Shown: positions 19,353 through 44,630 of the stretch, piece after piece | Position numbering within the stretch: position 1 is the stretch's first letter | Layout of the letters: each line of letters starts with the position of its first letter | From: Armatimonadota bacterium | Lineage (GTDB): Bacteria > Armatimonadota > Fimbriimonadia > Fimbriimonadales > Fimbriimonadaceae | DNA: 64,000 bases | Reading direction: 5' to 3' | NCBI GenBank assembly: GCA_018268315.1 | Contig: JAFDWU010000008.1 | Span: forward strand, 1 to 64,000 | Position numbers and translations under genes: made by a program | Notes under the pieces: model-generated | Databases searched by the model: none | The model's input: the letters and a program-made list of their open reading frames with translations, nothing else | What the model was told of the DNA's origin: nothing

Positions 19353-20918
19353 GTGCCTTTGATCGGACGCGTTGGCAGAAAGCGATTGCGCTCCCGATTG
19401 GCAATCGGCGTCCTTTACGGCTTGCTTTCTCTCGGCGCGCTGACCACCCTTTACCCCTTCTTGCTGATGGTCTCGATCGGTCTCAAGGGGCCAACCGATC
19501 AGAACGACCTCACCCTTGTGCCGCAATATCTTTCCGACCAAAGCGGCAAGAAGGAGGATGGGACGGCGCTACCCACCAGCCTGCTGGGCAAGTATCTGGC
19601 CGATAAATACGCAGGCAATGCAGACGAGATCTCCGCCACTCGACTTGGCGTTGCCGCGCCTTCGGACCAGGTGGAGCGCTACCAGAAATTCCTCCTGTCA
19701 TTGCCTGAGGATAGGTGGAGGGCGTGCTTCCGGGCGGCTGCGAACCAAGTTACTTCGCGCCTAAACGGGCGTTACCAAGATTGGCTGCGCGCACGGTTCG
19801 GAACGATTGAACGCCTAAACACGGCTTACACGGAGGAGAACACCGCGTTCGAAACCGTCGCGCCGCCGCTTGAATTCCCTGAGCGTAAAGACTGGAAGCC
19901 GACCCGCGATCGGAAGTATTTGGACTGGCTTGAGTTCAAAAGCAGTCTGCCCGCCGAATTTCGTGAACCAATAACCACCCAGCGACTCTTCCAGCTTTAT
20001 CTGCGGCAAAAGACCAAGAACCAGTTGGCGCAGGTACCCCCGGCAGTTGTCGGCGTGGCTAAGACTTTTGAGCAGATCACGGTGCCCGTAAGTGGGCCGG
20101 AGCTTGCGGAATTCAAGTCGAGCTTCTTGCCGCAGGCGTTTGAAACCAGCGCGGAAGACTTGTGGCATTCGGCGGGAGGCACGGGTGATCTCCCCATCCA
20201 ACCTTACGAGGAGCAGTATCTTGCCAGTCACGCCGCCGAGATCAAGCAAGAGTTCGCGACCCGCAACTACCGCTACGTGCTGAGCTACATCTTGCTCAAC
20301 GGCCGGGTGCTGTGGAACACGCTGCTTTTCGGTTTCCTCGCCATCCTCGCCCAGCTCACCATCAACCCAATTGCCGCCTATGCGCTCTCGCGCTATCCCA
20401 TCCGTGCAAGCGGGAAGATATTGATGTTCCTGCTCGCCACGATGGCGTTCCCTGCCGAGGTCTCCATGATCCCCTCCTTCCTGCTTCTCAAGCAGCTCGG
20501 CCTCCTCAACACCTTTGCGGCGTTGGTGCTGCCCGCGGCCGCTTCCGGCTACATGATCTTTCTACTGAAGGGCTTCTTCGATTCCCTGCCGCCGGAGCTA
20601 TACGAATCGGGGCAGATCGACGGGGCGCGCGAGCTGACGATGTTCCGGCGCATCGCCCTTCCCTTAAGCCGACCCGTGCTTGGCTATCTTTCCTTGCTTG
20701 CGTTCATGGGAGCGTACGGCTCGTTCCTCTTTGCCTTCCTGATCGCCCAGGATCGTAAGATTTGGACGCTCATGGTGTGGATCTATCAGCTACAGGGCCT
20801 TGCCCCGAAAGCGGTGATGATGGCCGCCCTCACGCTGGCGGCTGCGCCCACGCTCATGGTGTTCATGCTCTGTCAGCGCGTAATCATGAGAGGCATTATC
20901 TTGCCCGGCGAGAAGTGA
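19353..20918 (+). CDS. MalG-type sugar ABC permease with a large periplasmic insert
   Basis: A 521-residue carbohydrate ABC transporter permease; the family norm is about 280. The first membrane segment is VLYGLLSLGALTTLYPFLLM (residues 20-40). The remaining five begin near residue 320 (WNTLLFGFLAILAQLTINPI). The EAA loop that docks the ATPase is ESGQIDGARELTMFRRIALP. Between TM1 and TM2 lie about 270 extra residues, placed outside the membrane. Part of this insert, DWLRARFGTIERLNTAY and a following PPxEFP...DWLEF segment, resembles the helical stretch of GH42-type glycosidases. No cognate binding protein, partner permease or ATPase is nearby. The start is GTG. It overlaps the convergent deacetylase-like gene by 23 bp. 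Confidence 0.8.
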   Translation: MPLIGRVGRKRLRSRLAIGVLYGLLSLGALTTLYPFLLMVSIGLKGPTDQNDLTLVPQYLSDQSGKKEDGTALPTSLLGKYLADKYAGNADEISATRLGVAAPSDQVERYQKFLLSLPEDRWRACFRAAANQVTSRLNGRYQDWLRARFGTIERLNTAYTEENTAFETVAPPLEFPERKDWKPTRDRKYLDWLEFKSSLPAEFREPITTQRLFQLYLRQKTKNQLAQVPPAVVGVAKTFEQITVPVSGPELAEFKSSFLPQAFETSAEDLWHSAGGTGDLPIQPYEEQYLASHAAEIKQEFATRNYRYVLSYILLNGRVLWNTLLFGFLAILAQLTINPIAAYALSRYPIRASGKILMFLLATMAFPAEVSMIPSFLLLKQLGLLNTFAALVLPAAASGYMIFLLKGFFDSLPPELYESGQIDGARELTMFRRIALPLSRPVLGYLSLLAFMGAYGSFLFAFLIAQDRKIWTLMVWIYQLQGLAPKAVMMAALTLAAAPTLMVFMLCQRVIMRGIILPGEK

Positions 20919-21612
20919 GATCGCGCCAAGCGCGCTGATACTTCGTGTGGACGTAGCGCGGAATCTCGAAACTGTTTAAGGCTTGCTCTGCTGGCCGCAG
21001 TTCTTCCGTAAACGCTGCGGAATAGCCCGCCTGCTTGGCTAGTCGAGACACGCGGTGGTCAAAGCGGCCGTTTGGATACGCCAGGTATTTGATGCGATGG
21101 CCCAAGCCCTGCTCCAGCGCCTTCTTGGATTCGGTGAATTCGCGCAACATCTGTTCGTCGGTCATCTTTCGCAGATCTTCGGGATGGCTGACGGTCTGCG
21201 ACGCAATAACCACCAGCCCTTCCTTATCCAGTTCCCTCAACTGAGCCCAGGTCATCTTGGGTCGACCATGGGACGTGTCGCCTATGTAGCCGGTGTGGAC
21301 GAACATCACGCTTGGGATATGCCTGCGGCGCAGGATCGGCAGCGCGTAGGTGTAAAAGCCTTCGTAGTTGTCCGCAAACGTGATTAAGATTGACTTTGCG
21401 GGCAACGCCGTGTGACGCACGACATGAGCCGCCATCTGATCCACGGAAACGAAGTGAGCCCCACGCGCTGTCAGCCAGTCCAGTTGCTTTTCGAACTCTG
21501 CCGGGGTGCAGTCAAACCACAAAGACTTACTGTCGCGCACCGGGATGAAGTCGTGATAGGTCAGGATCGCGCTTTGGGACACCGCGCCAAGCAGGAGCGC
21601 AGCGAGGATCAT
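20896..21612 (-). CDS. NodB-family deacetylase paralogue, probably inactive
   Basis: A 238-residue exported protein (signal ILAALLLGAVSQSA) with the polysaccharide deacetylase fold, and a shorter paralogue of the gene just upstream. Family motif 1, normally TFDDG with the first Asp as catalytic base, reads TFADN here. Motif 2, normally SHxxxH with both His binding metal, reads SQTVSHP. The base is therefore lost and one metal ligand is replaced, while the fold-defining segments (SVMFVHTGYIGDTSHGRPKM, YLAYPNGRFD) are kept. It may bind glycan without cleaving it. The ATG overlaps the upstream TGA, so the two are coupled. Confidence 0.75.
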   Translation of the reverse strand: MILAALLLGAVSQSAILTYHDFIPVRDSKSLWFDCTPAEFEKQLDWLTARGAHFVSVDQMAAHVVRHTALPAKSILITFADNYEGFYTYALPILRRRHIPSVMFVHTGYIGDTSHGRPKMTWAQLRELDKEGLVVIASQTVSHPEDLRKMTDEQMLREFTESKKALEQGLGHRIKYLAYPNGRFDHRVSRLAKQAGYSAAFTEELRPAEQALNSFEIPRYVHTKYQRAWRDLTSRRAR

Positions 21613-23288
21613 GGCCTTCTTCGCCGACGCCGCCGCGGCGACGAGCTCCGGTCTGGCTGCGGAATCGTGATTGTGTTTGGATCCTGCGCCAACGTTCCCT
21701 TCAGAAGGATCACGTGCGGCACCGGCCGCGAGGGCGTGGTGGGAGTGCTGTGGCCGGAAGCGATTTGCTTATCGCCATACACCAGTGAGGTCGAAAATCC
21801 GGAATCCAGCATCACCGCCTCCTGCACTCCGTAAGCTTCCGCGCACTGCGCCAGCTTATCCGCCCCAACCGAGCCGAGCGACGCGCCCAGCACGATCCTG
21901 CCTTCCTTGTCCAGCCCCAAGAAAACCCTGCGGCGAGGGTCCATCATATCGCTCGCGCCGAAGATCAGCATATTGTCGTGCTCCAGCGCCTTCCCCTCAT
22001 GCACCAGCCAAGCGCCGGCCACGAACGCATCGGTGTAATCCGGCATCGCTTCTTTCAGCCGGTCCGGCTTATCGTGAGCCGCCCCCGCGAATGGGAAGAT
22101 CATGATTTCCTTATCGCTCCAAACCACCATCGGCCGCTGACGAATCTTCTCAACTCGGTCCGGGATTGGGTCCTCAACCCATGTTGCTTCCTTATGTACC
22201 TGCACGGGGCCCACCATCTCATTGCTAGTCCCCGCCACCGCTGCCATCGCGAAAAAGGTGCCGTTGATTCCCGCCACCGCGCCTTCCTCTTTGATGAAAT
22301 CGCTCACCTGCTCGCGAGTTGCCGAACGGCAAGAGATCGGCGTTCCGCCGATGATGAACGCCATATCGACGCCCTCCTCTTTCGTCAGTTCGTATTTGAT
22401 CGGATCCGCCTTAATCACCTTTCTTACAAAGCAGGCAGGCGCTTCAATCTCATCAGTCTGATCCTGCAGGGCGTCTTCAAGCTTTGTGCTGATGTAGCGC
22501 TTAACTGCATAGATGCTGGGCGAGGTTTCCGCAGTGCCGCGGTCGGTGGAGAATGCCATCTTGTACCCCGCCCGCTTGGCCAGGTCTTGAGTCACTGCGT
22601 CGTTCTTACCGTCGGGATAGGCCAGGTAATCGATGGTGATGCCTAGCTGCGACTCAAGCGTGCGCTTAGAATCCTCAAGTTCCGTCGTGACCTCCGAAGG
22701 CGTTAGCTTCGTGATGTCTTCCGGATGGGTGACGGTGTGGGAGCCGATAGTGACGATGCCCTCTTTTTGGAGCTGCTTCAAGGTCTCCCATGACATCTTC
22801 GGGCGCCCGTGGGCGGTGTCTCCCACGAAGGCCGTGTGAACAAACATCGCGACGGGGATCTTCCGCTCCTTCAGGAGCGGATAGGCGTTATCGAAGAAGC
22901 CCTGATAGTTATCGTCGAAGGTAATCACCACCGCCTTCGGTGGCACCGGCGCGCCGGTAGTGAGGTGCTTATAAAGCTGGTCGAGGCTGATGGGGACCAC
23001 TCCAGCGGTTTGGAGGTCATCCATCTGTTTCTCGAATTGCTTGGCGGTCACATCGAAGTACACAGAATCGCGCTCACGCTTTTCGATGACGTCGTGATAC
23101 ATCAGCACGACAACGCGAGCGTTTTGGGCTTCCAGCACGATCTCACCGGTGCGAACCGGTTCGGCGGGTTGAGAATTGGAAGTTTGAGCCCTTGAGGAGG
23201 GTGAGCCAGGGGCGTCGCCTTGGTCTCGCAGGTTCTTGCAACCGAATGCGGTCAGGAGCAGGAGCGCAAATAATATGGGACGTGGAAT
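21609..23288 (-). CDS. Lipoprotein fusion: NodB deacetylase plus phosphodiester glycosidase domain
   Basis: An envelope enzyme of about 559 residues with two domains. The first is a polysaccharide deacetylase with intact TFDDN and SHTVTHP motifs. The second, the C-terminal 250 residues, matches the NAGPA/DUF2233 phosphodiester glycosidase fold (AGINGTFFA, FLGLDKEGRIVLGASLGSVG, AVMLDSGFSTSLVY). The sequence PRPILFALLLLTAFGC is a clean lipoprotein signal. It has no ATG, GTG or TTG at its head: an ATT at 23288, 8 nt after AAGGGG, is the best-placed codon, while the only canonical upstream start is a TTG at 23408 giving 40 unnatural residues. The C-terminus is a run of seven Arg encoded where the downstream gene's start overlaps. 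Confidence 0.8.
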   Translation of the reverse strand: MPRPILFALLLLTAFGCKNLRDQGDAPGSPSSRAQTSNSQPAEPVRTGEIVLEAQNARVVVLMYHDVIEKRERDSVYFDVTAKQFEKQMDDLQTAGVVPISLDQLYKHLTTGAPVPPKAVVITFDDNYQGFFDNAYPLLKERKIPVAMFVHTAFVGDTAHGRPKMSWETLKQLQKEGIVTIGSHTVTHPEDITKLTPSEVTTELEDSKRTLESQLGITIDYLAYPDGKNDAVTQDLAKRAGYKMAFSTDRGTAETSPSIYAVKRYISTKLEDALQDQTDEIEAPACFVRKVIKADPIKYELTKEEGVDMAFIIGGTPISCRSATREQVSDFIKEEGAVAGINGTFFAMAAVAGTSNEMVGPVQVHKEATWVEDPIPDRVEKIRQRPMVVWSDKEIMIFPFAGAAHDKPDRLKEAMPDYTDAFVAGAWLVHEGKALEHDNMLIFGASDMMDPRRRVFLGLDKEGRIVLGASLGSVGADKLAQCAEAYGVQEAVMLDSGFSTSLVYGDKQIASGHSTPTTPSRPVPHVILLKGTLAQDPNTITIPQPDRSSSPRRRRRRRP

Positions 23289-23418
23289 ATCCCACGCCCC
23301 TTTGTCGAAAGACCTGTATTTTTTACAAGGCTTGGGGTTCGTTTCCCCCTGAGGGGTTGCGGACCTTGGCGATATTCTACACCGAAAAGTTAAGAGATCG
23401 ACTCGCAATTTAATCAGA

Positions 23419-41567: not shown

Positions 41568-43301
41568 ATGATCAGAATTCTAAGAATCGAAAGGCGCAAG
41601 CTGGTAAGGCAAAAGAGCCTACTGGCCGATATCGCGCTGCTCTTTATCGTGCTTGGCACCCTATATGCCATTGCGCGTGTTGGCGCGGGCATGATGGTTG
41701 CGTTCAACCCGCCGAACACGATGCCCGCCATCGATTTGAACCCGGCAAACCTCCCCTACTATGCCGCGCGCTCAACCCTGCGCATGTTCCTCGGTCTCGG
41801 CATTTCGCTCGCCTTCACGCTGTCCTACGGCTACATCGCGGCGAAGAACCACAAGCTTGAGCGGATCATGATTCCGCTGCTGGACATCCTGCAGTCGGTG
41901 CCGGTGTTCGGCTACCTGGCGGTCACGGTTACCGCGTTCATCGCACTGTTTCCGGGAAGCCTACTTGGCCTTGAATGCGCGGCGATCTTCGCGATCTTCA
42001 CCGGCCAGGCGTGGAACATGACCTTCGCGTTCTACCACTCGCTTATCACCTTGCCAAAGGAATTGGATGAAGCCACGCGGCTATTCAGGCTGAACAAGTT
42101 CCAGCGCTTTGCCAAGCTGGAAGTTCCCGCAGCGATGATCCCGCTGGTTTGGAACGCGATGATGAGCTTTGGCGGCGGCTGGTTCTTCGTATCCGCCTCC
42201 GAGGCGATTAGCGTGCTGAAGAAAGGCTACTCGCTTCCCGGCCTTGGCTCCTACGTCGCCAAGGCAGTGGATCAGAAGAATCTAATGGCGGTCGGCTATG
42301 CGGTTATCACCATCGTCCTCGTGATCGTCATCGTCGATCAGCTCTTCTGGCGACCTCTGGTCGCTTGGGCAGAAAAGTTTAAGCTGGAGAAGAGCGCTTC
42401 CGCCGTCGTGCCCAGCAGTTGGCTGTACGACATCCTGAAAAGCTCTAGCCTGCCGAAGATGGCCGCTCAATTGCTGGAACGCCAGGCTGCATGGCTGCGC
42501 CGAGTGCTGCCAAAGCCGCGCACTAATCGGCCGATTCAGTTCAAGAAACAGAGGCCCAATTGGGGCGATACCATTTACGGCCTCGTCATCGGCGTCGTGC
42601 TTTGCATCGCGGCCATTACGGGCTACCGGTTCATCACGTCTGAGGTCAGCCTTCGTGAGGTCCTCACATGCCTGGGACTTGGCGGACTGACGTTCCTCCG
42701 AGTGGTGCTGCTGGTCGCGCTTAGCACTCTCATCTGGACTCCCATCGGGGTCGCGATCGGCTTTCAGCCGAAGCTGGCCCGCTTCATGCAGCCGCTGGTG
42801 CTGCTGTTTGCGTCGTTCCCCGCGAACTTCCTGTTCCCGCTGGCGGCAATCCTATTCCTTCGCATCCACCTCACACTGAACATCGGCAGCATGTTCCTGA
42901 TGGCGTTGGGCACGCAGTGGTACATCTTGTTCAACGTGATTGCGGGGGCCATGCAGGTTCCCACCGACCTGCGCGAGATGGCGATCAACATGCGCCTTTC
43001 GCGGCAAATCATGTGGAAGCGGCTGATCATTCCCGCTATCTTCCCGGCCTGGGTCACCGGCGCGATCACCGCCTCCGGCGGCGCATGGAACGCAAGTGTG
43101 GTGAGCGAAGTTATTACTTGGGGCAACGACAAGCTAGAGGCGAATGGCCTTGGCAGCTACATCACGCGCGCAACCCAGAGCGAAGACTGGCCGCGAATCG
43201 TGCTTGGTGTTGCCATGATGTGCATTTTCGTAGTGACGGTGAACCGTCTCGTTTGGCGCAGGCTCTATACGGTAGCGGAGTCGCGTTACAAGCTGGCTTA
43301 A
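41568..43301 (+). CDS. Fused double permease of a NitT/TauT-type ABC transporter
   Basis: A 577-residue membrane protein with two BPD_transp_1 domains in one chain. The first EAA loop is ELDEATRLFRLNKFQRFAKLEVP near residue 165, the second DLREMAINMRLSRQIMWKRLIIP near residue 470. The helices resemble SsuC/NrtB permeases. The two halves are joined by a hydrophilic linker near residues 270-330. A GGAG Shine-Dalgarno lies 7 nt before the ATG. The ATPase gene follows by 15 bp, but no periplasmic binding protein is encoded. The substrate is unknown. Confidence 0.85.
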   Translation: MIRILRIERRKLVRQKSLLADIALLFIVLGTLYAIARVGAGMMVAFNPPNTMPAIDLNPANLPYYAARSTLRMFLGLGISLAFTLSYGYIAAKNHKLERIMIPLLDILQSVPVFGYLAVTVTAFIALFPGSLLGLECAAIFAIFTGQAWNMTFAFYHSLITLPKELDEATRLFRLNKFQRFAKLEVPAAMIPLVWNAMMSFGGGWFFVSASEAISVLKKGYSLPGLGSYVAKAVDQKNLMAVGYAVITIVLVIVIVDQLFWRPLVAWAEKFKLEKSASAVVPSSWLYDILKSSSLPKMAAQLLERQAAWLRRVLPKPRTNRPIQFKKQRPNWGDTIYGLVIGVVLCIAAITGYRFITSEVSLREVLTCLGLGGLTFLRVVLLVALSTLIWTPIGVAIGFQPKLARFMQPLVLLFASFPANFLFPLAAILFLRIHLTLNIGSMFLMALGTQWYILFNVIAGAMQVPTDLREMAINMRLSRQIMWKRLIIPAIFPAWVTGAITASGGAWNASVVSEVITWGNDKLEANGLGSYITRATQSEDWPRIVLGVAMMCIFVVTVNRLVWRRLYTVAESRYKLA

Positions 43302-43316
43302 GTTAGGAGAATTAAG

Positions 43317-44630
43317 ATGTCCAAGACCGCAACTCCATCCGAAGTAATCCTCGACCTCCAGAAGGTCTCTAAGAGCTTCCCACGCCCTGATTCGGGCGGC
43401 TCTTACAAGGTGCTGGAAGACCTCACGCTACAGATTCGGCGCGGCGAGTTCGTGGCGCTTCTAGGCAGAAGCGGCAGCGGCAAGAGCACTCTGCTCCGCA
43501 TTGCGGCTGGCTTGATTCAGCCCTCGGCGGGAATCGCGCAAAGCTCCGGACTCCCGGTGCGCGGCGCAAATCCGGACGTGGCGATGGTGTTCCAAAGCTT
43601 TGCGTTGCTGCCGTGGCTCACGGTGCAGGATAACGTAGAAATTGGCCTTGAAAACATGGACGTTTCCGACGAGGAGCGTGTAAAGCGGGCGCTTGATGCA
43701 ATCCGATTGGTGGGTTTGGACGGATTCGAGAAGGCGTATCCGAAGGAGCTTTCCGGCGGTATGCAGCAGCGAGTTGGCTTCGCCCGCGCATTCGTGATGC
43801 GCCCCCGCGTTCTGATGCTGGATGAGCCGTTCAGCGCGCTCGACGTTCTCACCGCTGAAAACCTGCGCGGTGAGATCAGCGATCTTTGGGAGAGCGACGA
43901 ATTCCCTGCCGACAGCGTGCTGATGGTTACTCACAACATTGAGGAAGCGGTGCTTCTTGCGGACAGGGTGGTGATCCTTGGCGCAAACCCTGGCCATGTG
44001 CGCGGCGAAATCAGGGTTCAGCTTGAGCGGCCCCGCGACCGAAAGGCCAAGCCATTCCGCGCGATGTGCGATCACATCTATACGCTGATGACCAACCCCG
44101 AAACGAAGGTCACCCAGTTCCGGGGCGAGGGCGCCCAACCGACCTACGAATTCGCGGCCTTGCCAGAAGCGCGCGCAGGCGCCATCAGCGGCTTCCTGGA
44201 GCTGGTGCAGGAATACGGCGGGCCGGAAGACGTCGCGGTTATCTCGCAGCAGCTTCGCTTGCACTCGGATGAACTACTCACAATTCTGGACGCCGCCGTG
44301 CTACTTGGCTTCGCCAACGTCTCGCAGGGCGATGTGACCGTCACCGAAATCGGCAGCAAGTTCGCGATGGGCGAAATCGAGGAGTCCAAGCAGATATTCC
44401 GCGATCAGGTTCTGAAATACGCACCCCTAGTGGCACTCATCCACCGAGAGCTGCAGGAAGCGAGGAACAACGAAATGAAATCGGACTACTTCCTCGAACT
44501 GCTTGATCAGTATCACAGTGAGGAAGAGGCCGAGAAGCAGTTCTACACTGCCGTGGATTGGGGGCGATACGCCGGCCTATTCGAGTACGAGGCCGATTCC
44601 AAGACATTGAATCTGTACGAGAATGACTGA
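43317..44630 (+). CDS. NitT/TauT-type ABC ATPase with AAA-associated C-terminal domain
   Basis: A 437-residue ATPase for the preceding permease. Walker A is LLGRSGSGKSTLL, the ABC signature KELSGGMQQRVGFARA, and Walker B VLMLDEPFSALD. Residues 270-437 form the extra domain found in some nitrate/sulfonate-type ATPases (AAA-associated C-terminal family), from GFLELVQEYGGPEDVA onward, which contains a winged-helix-like segment. This extra domain may sense the substrate. TAGGAG lies 7 nt upstream of the ATG. The LmbE-like gene overlaps its 3' end by 8 bp. Confidence 0.9.
   Translation: MSKTATPSEVILDLQKVSKSFPRPDSGGSYKVLEDLTLQIRRGEFVALLGRSGSGKSTLLRIAAGLIQPSAGIAQSSGLPVRGANPDVAMVFQSFALLPWLTVQDNVEIGLENMDVSDEERVKRALDAIRLVGLDGFEKAYPKELSGGMQQRVGFARAFVMRPRVLMLDEPFSALDVLTAENLRGEISDLWESDEFPADSVLMVTHNIEEAVLLADRVVILGANPGHVRGEIRVQLERPRDRKAKPFRAMCDHIYTLMTNPETKVTQFRGEGAQPTYEFAALPEARAGAISGFLELVQEYGGPEDVAVISQQLRLHSDELLTILDAAVLLGFANVSQGDVTVTEIGSKFAMGEIEESKQIFRDQVLKYAPLVALIHRELQEARNNEMKSDYFLELLDQYHSEEEAEKQFYTAVDWGRYAGLFEYEADSKTLNLYEND

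Follow-up and report, generated by a model that had tools for sequence, protein, structure and literature searches.

The permease gene and its MalG-type core

The window, by which is meant the whole 64,000-nucleotide stretch of Armatimonadota DNA analysed here, encodes on its forward strand a real and conserved permease of the MalG/CUT1 type. The gene and the features of its membrane core are as follows.

19353..20918, + strand: entire gene of the MalG-type permease with its enlarged P1 loop; GTG start, 521 aa (open reading frame, BPD_transp_1 match, conserved start, full-length orthologues)
19386..19484, + strand: TM1 helix, residues 12-44 (AlphaFold helix 12-44; hydropathy peak 12-30)
20232..20915, + strand: MalG-type transmembrane core, residues 294-521 (BPD_transp_1 at 347-515; MalG fold, Z ~20)
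20595..20627, + strand: EAA-type coupling motif ELYESGQIDGA, residues 415-425 (conserved columns in 76 homologues)

The GTG of 19353-20918 is preceded, at a distance of three codons, by an in-frame stop, the open frame being 524 codons long, and Met1 of nearly all of 76 homologues aligns with the first residue of the window permease; on these two grounds the start is considered to be correctly assigned. Full-length orthologues, 50-65% identical, are present in most genomes of the family. Residues 347-515 match the Pfam family BPD_transp_1 (E=8.6e-12; 45.6 bits against a cut-off of 26.4), the best profile matches are the UgpE/MalG models, and the best structure matches are MalG structures: in VIA, the predicted model superimposes on E. 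coli MalG (3puv_G) with Z 20.6 and rmsd 3.5 over 260 aligned residues. In the segment ELYESGQIDGA, which from knowledge of CUT1 permeases we take to be the EAA loop, E418, D423, G424 and A425 are invariant or nearly so among the 76 homologues. A preliminary description of this DNA had likewise recognised a MalG-type permease of 521 residues.

On the minus strand, 20896-23408 houses two adjacent genes whose products look by eye like polysaccharide deacetylases. The second product has an additional domain at its C-terminus, and the first gene has a convergent overlap of 23 bases with the 3' end of the permease gene. Elsewhere in the window, 41568-44630 encodes a protein of 577 residues that combines two permease domains in a single chain, and then an ABC ATPase that is extended at its C-terminus by a long segment.

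A helical repeat array in the P1 loop

Between TM1 and TM2 the permease carries a large periplasmic insert, whose parts were delineated as follows.

19485..20231, + strand: expanded periplasmic P1 loop, a helical repeat domain, residues 45-293 (pLDDT 87-98; AlphaFold helix boundaries)
19581..19724, + strand: repeat 1, sequence-diverged, residues 77-124 (AlphaFold H77-85, H90-95, H104-116, E122-124; aligned to repeat 1 of relatives)
19770..19961, + strand: repeat 2, containing the GH42-like motif of the preliminary description, residues 140-203 (repeat HMM 79.5 bits; Pfam GH42 positions 147-216; genome search E=6.4e-19)
19986..20135, + strand: repeat 3, residues 212-261 (repeat HMM 34.8 bits; genome search E=4.8e-9)
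20151..20231, + strand: terminal partial repeat or cap into TM2, residues 267-293 (AlphaFold H267-273, H282-292; position matches repeat 5 of the homologue L169)

In the AlphaFold model TM1 spans residues 12-44 and TM2 belongs to the helices that follow residue 294 or so, which leaves some 250 residues for P1. A hydropathy scan, which locates TM1 at 12-30 and TM2 at 313-331, leaves a gap of 282, and the roughly 270 residues originally estimated fall between the two values. The insert is predicted by AlphaFold to be ordered throughout (pLDDT 87-98), and a disordered insert was rejected for this reason. It is a tandem array of helical repeats of about 65 residues, each with the pattern helix-helix-helix-short strand, and not a single GH42-like segment. 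The window permease has two clear repeats, one diverged repeat that is not significant on its own by the repeat HMM, and a remnant. In deeper Armatimonadota relatives, L169, L168, L061 and L059 among them, the array comprises five such units in succession, each again some 65 residues long; in the AlphaFold model of the five-repeat homologue L169 these span 63-129, 140-211, 215-279 and 281-347, with the last one continuing into TM2, and units of matching pattern in the window permease span 77-124, 136-206 and 209-258, with the remnant at 267-292. Set against the five-unit array of the relatives, the same pattern ending in a remnant makes the window insert look like a shortened form of a longer array.

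The repeats were tested with a model built from the second repeat only of 67 shorter, window-like proteins, which avoids circularity. In 13 deeper relatives this model picks up the remaining repeat positions, for the most part with 8-25 bits, the best score over 260 shuffled sequences being 4.3 bits. The insert is less conserved than the core (mean major-residue fraction 0.48 vs 0.79). When both full models were compared by Foldseek and VIA, the top matches were permease cores alone, which was uninformative on the fold of the insert. No record in the plasmid collection covers the insert, the viral library gave nothing useful, and a search of the open-access literature yielded no paper on this permease-insert architecture, nor on a MalE-MalF fusion.

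The probable partner: a binding protein-MalF fusion at another locus

As the preliminary description had stated, there is no binding protein beside the window permease gene, nor is any MalF encoded near it. The same genome encodes at G000:C1:1004222-1006681 a protein of 820 aa that consists of an N-terminal SBP_bac_1 domain (111 bits), a linker transmembrane helix and a MalF domain matching BPD_transp_1 (an SBP-MalF fusion, or MalEF), and there is no MalG gene beside it. The two strongest SBP_bac_1 matches in the genome are fusions, the third being a free protein beside another permease pair.

The partnership between MalG and MalEF was concluded from synteny, co-occurrence and co-divergence. 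An orthologue of the fusion immediately precedes the insert-bearing MalG in 12 relatives (L059, L061, L062, L162, L164-L170 and L172), nine of which (L162, L164-L170 and L172) come from one scan; in the deeper relatives the two genes are mostly separated by 3-120 bp, or they overlap. In G001, a genome of the window's family, a diverged fusion/MalG pair adjoins a trehalase/MGH1-like hydrolase gene and a ROK kinase gene. Over 101 genomes, 58 contain both MalG and MalEF, four contain each one alone and 35 neither, with a Fisher p=3e-18 that overstates the co-occurrence because the genomes are related; G001 was scored present by hand in this count, on account of its adjacent, diverged pair. Six of the eight discordant genomes are under 90% complete, and G038 and G060, which are fairly complete, have an insert-bearing MalG but no MalEF match. 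In the 21 genomes that contain every part, the MalG core diverges in step with the MalF core of the fusion (partial matrix r 0.49, p=0.002), the corresponding value for the paralogous MalF core being 0.13 (p=0.17). On these comparisons of sequence and gene order, the window MalG and the 820-aa fusion very probably represent two halves of one importer.

This finding bears directly on the suggestion, made in the preliminary description, that the insert replaces a binding protein and is itself the importer's substrate receptor. Two features would fit such a role, namely the large, ordered periplasmic domain and the lack of any binding protein beside the gene, but a cognate SBP-MalF fusion exists, is syntenic in relatives and co-occurs with the permease; moreover, the insert has no SBP match in Pfam and consists of all-helical repeats and not of a two-lobed alpha/beta receptor. 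We now regard this suggestion as very improbable, and it was dropped when the fusion was found. Relatives with the same insert had also been expected to lack a linked binding protein, an expectation contradicted by the deeper relatives: because the fusion gene directly precedes MalG there, the insert-bearing family does have a linked binding domain. An ordinary linked binding protein is what the preliminary description had held to speak against its own proposal, and this is what was found, except that it is fused and not free.

An insert-bearing gene is also present in L094 (JADZEW010000016.1), a record titled Methanoregulaceae archaeon, where its coordinates are those of the gene in G010, a genome from the window's own family; the title is probably wrong. 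The record L162 (SYKE01000135.1), which likewise carries an insert-bearing gene, is titled Actinomycetota bacterium.

Resemblance of the repeats to GH42 glycosidases

The Pfam GH42 profile matches the window permease over positions 147-216 of 376, with E=2.6e-4 and 20.9 bits against a cut-off of 21. In deeper relatives the match is strong, with whole-protein E-values down to 4.7e-20, and some of the proteins contain it two or three times over. A profile of the repeat, compared with the PDB, finds GH42 beta-galactosidases at E ~1e-6. Beta-amylases, beta-agarases and a GH167 enzyme follow with weaker scores, and in each case it is a short stretch that matches; the alignment to 1kwg lies at 159-215. 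Judged by these profile scores, the likeness to GH42 is beyond chance, and to this extent the GH42-type segment proposed at the outset has stood up; it is as a single segment that it has not, the motif being repeated in tandem. There is no TIM barrel in the AlphaFold model of the insert, which shows all-helical repeats with 3-residue strands, and the GH42 catalytic glutamates, E141 and E312 in 1kwg, would lie outside the matched stretch. The insert as a GH42 enzyme was rejected, since the match takes in a short helical stretch only and there is no barrel.

Only two further proteins of the window's own genome match the repeat profile, one of them glycosidase-like, with GH42 and agarase-CBM matches, and the other without a Pfam family. 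The gene L177:2781-5816 (G000:C4) encodes 1011 residues with a GH42-like helical motif and with no Pfam match at E 0.01; its product has the look of a divergent glycosidase whose ends are charged and of low complexity.

The glycosidase resemblance raises the question of a glycan-binding module, in which the GH42-like repeats would hold an oligo- or polysaccharide and feed it to the tethered binding domain. Repeats would confer avidity, and some of the deeper operons adjoin glycosidase genes (GH106-like in L166; GH42M-containing in L167). Nevertheless, the matched stretch is short and helical and lacks the catalytic barrel, the strongly conserved residues of the insert are mostly of framework type (L, N, P, W, F and K) with no conserved binding cluster identified among them, and substrate specificity would already be provided by the fused SBP. 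We consider such a module rather unlikely. The insert itself may or may not bind sugar directly.

P1 size and receptor fusion

P1 was measured by hydropathy in Armatimonadota MalG proteins, from loci picked by their similarity to the MalG and MalEF proteins. In the 35 MalGs paired with an unfused MalF it is 31-129 residues long, with a median of about 41, in keeping with the preliminary description, in which the normal loop was said to be much shorter than that of the window permease. A P1 of more than 150 residues is found in 25 of the 39 MalGs with a fused MalF, versus none of the 35 with an unfused one, a correlation carried by few orthologous groups. In 13 MalGs paired with a fused MalF the loop is of normal size (39-49 residues), so that SBP fusion does not require a platform; a strict rule that fusion needs a large P1 was discarded for this reason.

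Large inserts are of at least three kinds, namely the window repeats, one of about 160 residues in the paralogue on C2, and one of about 330 residues at L251. The C2 protein (L044:6611-8407, in G000:C2) is a MalG of 599 aa with six predicted transmembrane segments before its P1 insert; it is conserved, next to an SBP-MalF fusion, in many relatives. The MalG at L251:7151-8653, whose insert has no repeat match, has an SBP-MalF fusion some 470 bp away on its own strand. It is tempting to suggest that the fused-MalF importers of Armatimonadota have repeatedly and independently built docking platforms in MalG P1, with these three types of insert as the outcome, one of which would have arisen by duplication of a helical unit that GH42 glycosidases also possess. 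This is put forward tentatively, as something that may well prove otherwise; if true, the platform would set the presentation or recycling of the tethered receptor.

Co-variation was also sought between the insert and the binding domain over 21 genomes. Divergence of the insert correlates with that of the cognate SBP with a partial r of 0.26 (p=0.014), and with that of the paralogous SBP with a partial r of 0.08 (p=0.31); the difference between the cognate and paralogous correlations, 0.156 with a jackknife SE of 0.214, is not significant. The value for the cognate SBP is higher, at 0.44, when the paralogue is not controlled for. This co-variation, weak as it is, together with the lack of any match in Pfam to a known peptidoglycan-binding domain, argues against an envelope spacer or anchor, an insert that would touch peptidoglycan or an outer-membrane protein and not the binding domain. 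The repeat architecture, the variable repeat number and the lower conservation of the insert relative to the core would suit a spacer of this kind, which on balance appears unlikely.

Proposed organisation of the importer

The reading that we favour, with some reserve, is that of a MalEF-MalG importer, with MalK supplied from elsewhere, in which P1 of MalG forms a helical repeat platform that docks the tethered binding domain. The window gene would provide the MalG subunit of a CUT1-type sugar importer and the 820-aa fusion its partner, the two being halves of a split MalEF-MalG operon that now lie at separate loci. Sugar would be captured by the SBP domain tethered to MalF, and MalG and MalF would together form the pore. 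P1 would have grown through tandem duplication of the ~65-residue helical unit resembling the helical stretch of GH42 and GH14, and the array would stand as a rigid platform in the periplasm where the translocation path opens, most likely serving to dock and orient the MalF-tethered binding domain. Docking is favoured by the restriction of large P1 loops to MalGs with a fused MalF and by the weak co-variation of the insert with its cognate SBP; the 13 fused pairs with a normal P1 and the lower conservation of the insert speak against it. In E. coli this task falls to P2 of MalF and the short P1 of MalG; the MalF of the 820-aa fusion has no loop of P2 size. Contact of E. coli MalE with MalF P2 and MalG P1 is attributed to Daus et al. 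2007, as cited in PMC3150292.

ATP would probably be hydrolysed by a MalK encoded elsewhere, perhaps the only MalK-type ATPase of the window's genome, which is linked to the paralogous C2 system. Given this single ATPase, and given that no MalK-type ATPase is found beside the window permease gene or in the deeper two-gene operons save for a weak match in L166, MalK is likely to be shared between importers.

Comparison with known systems

The importer would be an unusual elaboration of a known transporter, in which the added domain is ordered and conserved and would have the docking function proposed above. It enlarges one of the most thoroughly studied transporter families by a tandem-repeat architecture and offers a testable case of how an importer changes once its receptor is permanently tethered. 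It would also mean that two orphan genes at distant sites in the genome make up one importer, a pairing that annotation by gene neighbourhood would miss.

With GH42 beta-galactosidases (PF02449; 1kwg, 4uni and 6lvw) and GH14 beta-amylases, the insert shares a helical stretch of about 35-60 residues with the common pattern W-L-x-x-RYG-x-I-x-x-LN-x-A-W/Y ... P ... DW-x-x-F, but it lacks the TIM barrel, has up to five tandem copies of the stretch, and is sited within a permease loop. The E. coli MalFGK2-MalE system (CUT1; MalG 2r6g_G) has in common with the window system the core MalG fold (Z ~20), the coupling motif and the MalF/MalG pairing. It differs in that P1 is a short loop, against the 250-280 or so residues of repeats in the window permease, whose system also has its binding domain fused to MalF, a MalF without a P2-sized loop, and dispersed genes. 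The paralogous MalEF/MalG/MalK operon (G000:C2) resembles the window system in combining an SBP-MalF fusion with a MalG of enlarged P1 (~160 residues), but its insert is a different one without these repeats, its MalG has extra N-terminal transmembrane helices, and its MalK is linked. MalE-MalF fusion importers are known from Bdellovibrio, and in these, as in GlnPQ and OpuA, the binding domain is covalently tethered to a transmembrane subunit, as it is here. To our knowledge no such repeat platform exists in any of them, whereas in the importer proposed here it is the other permease subunit that bears one.
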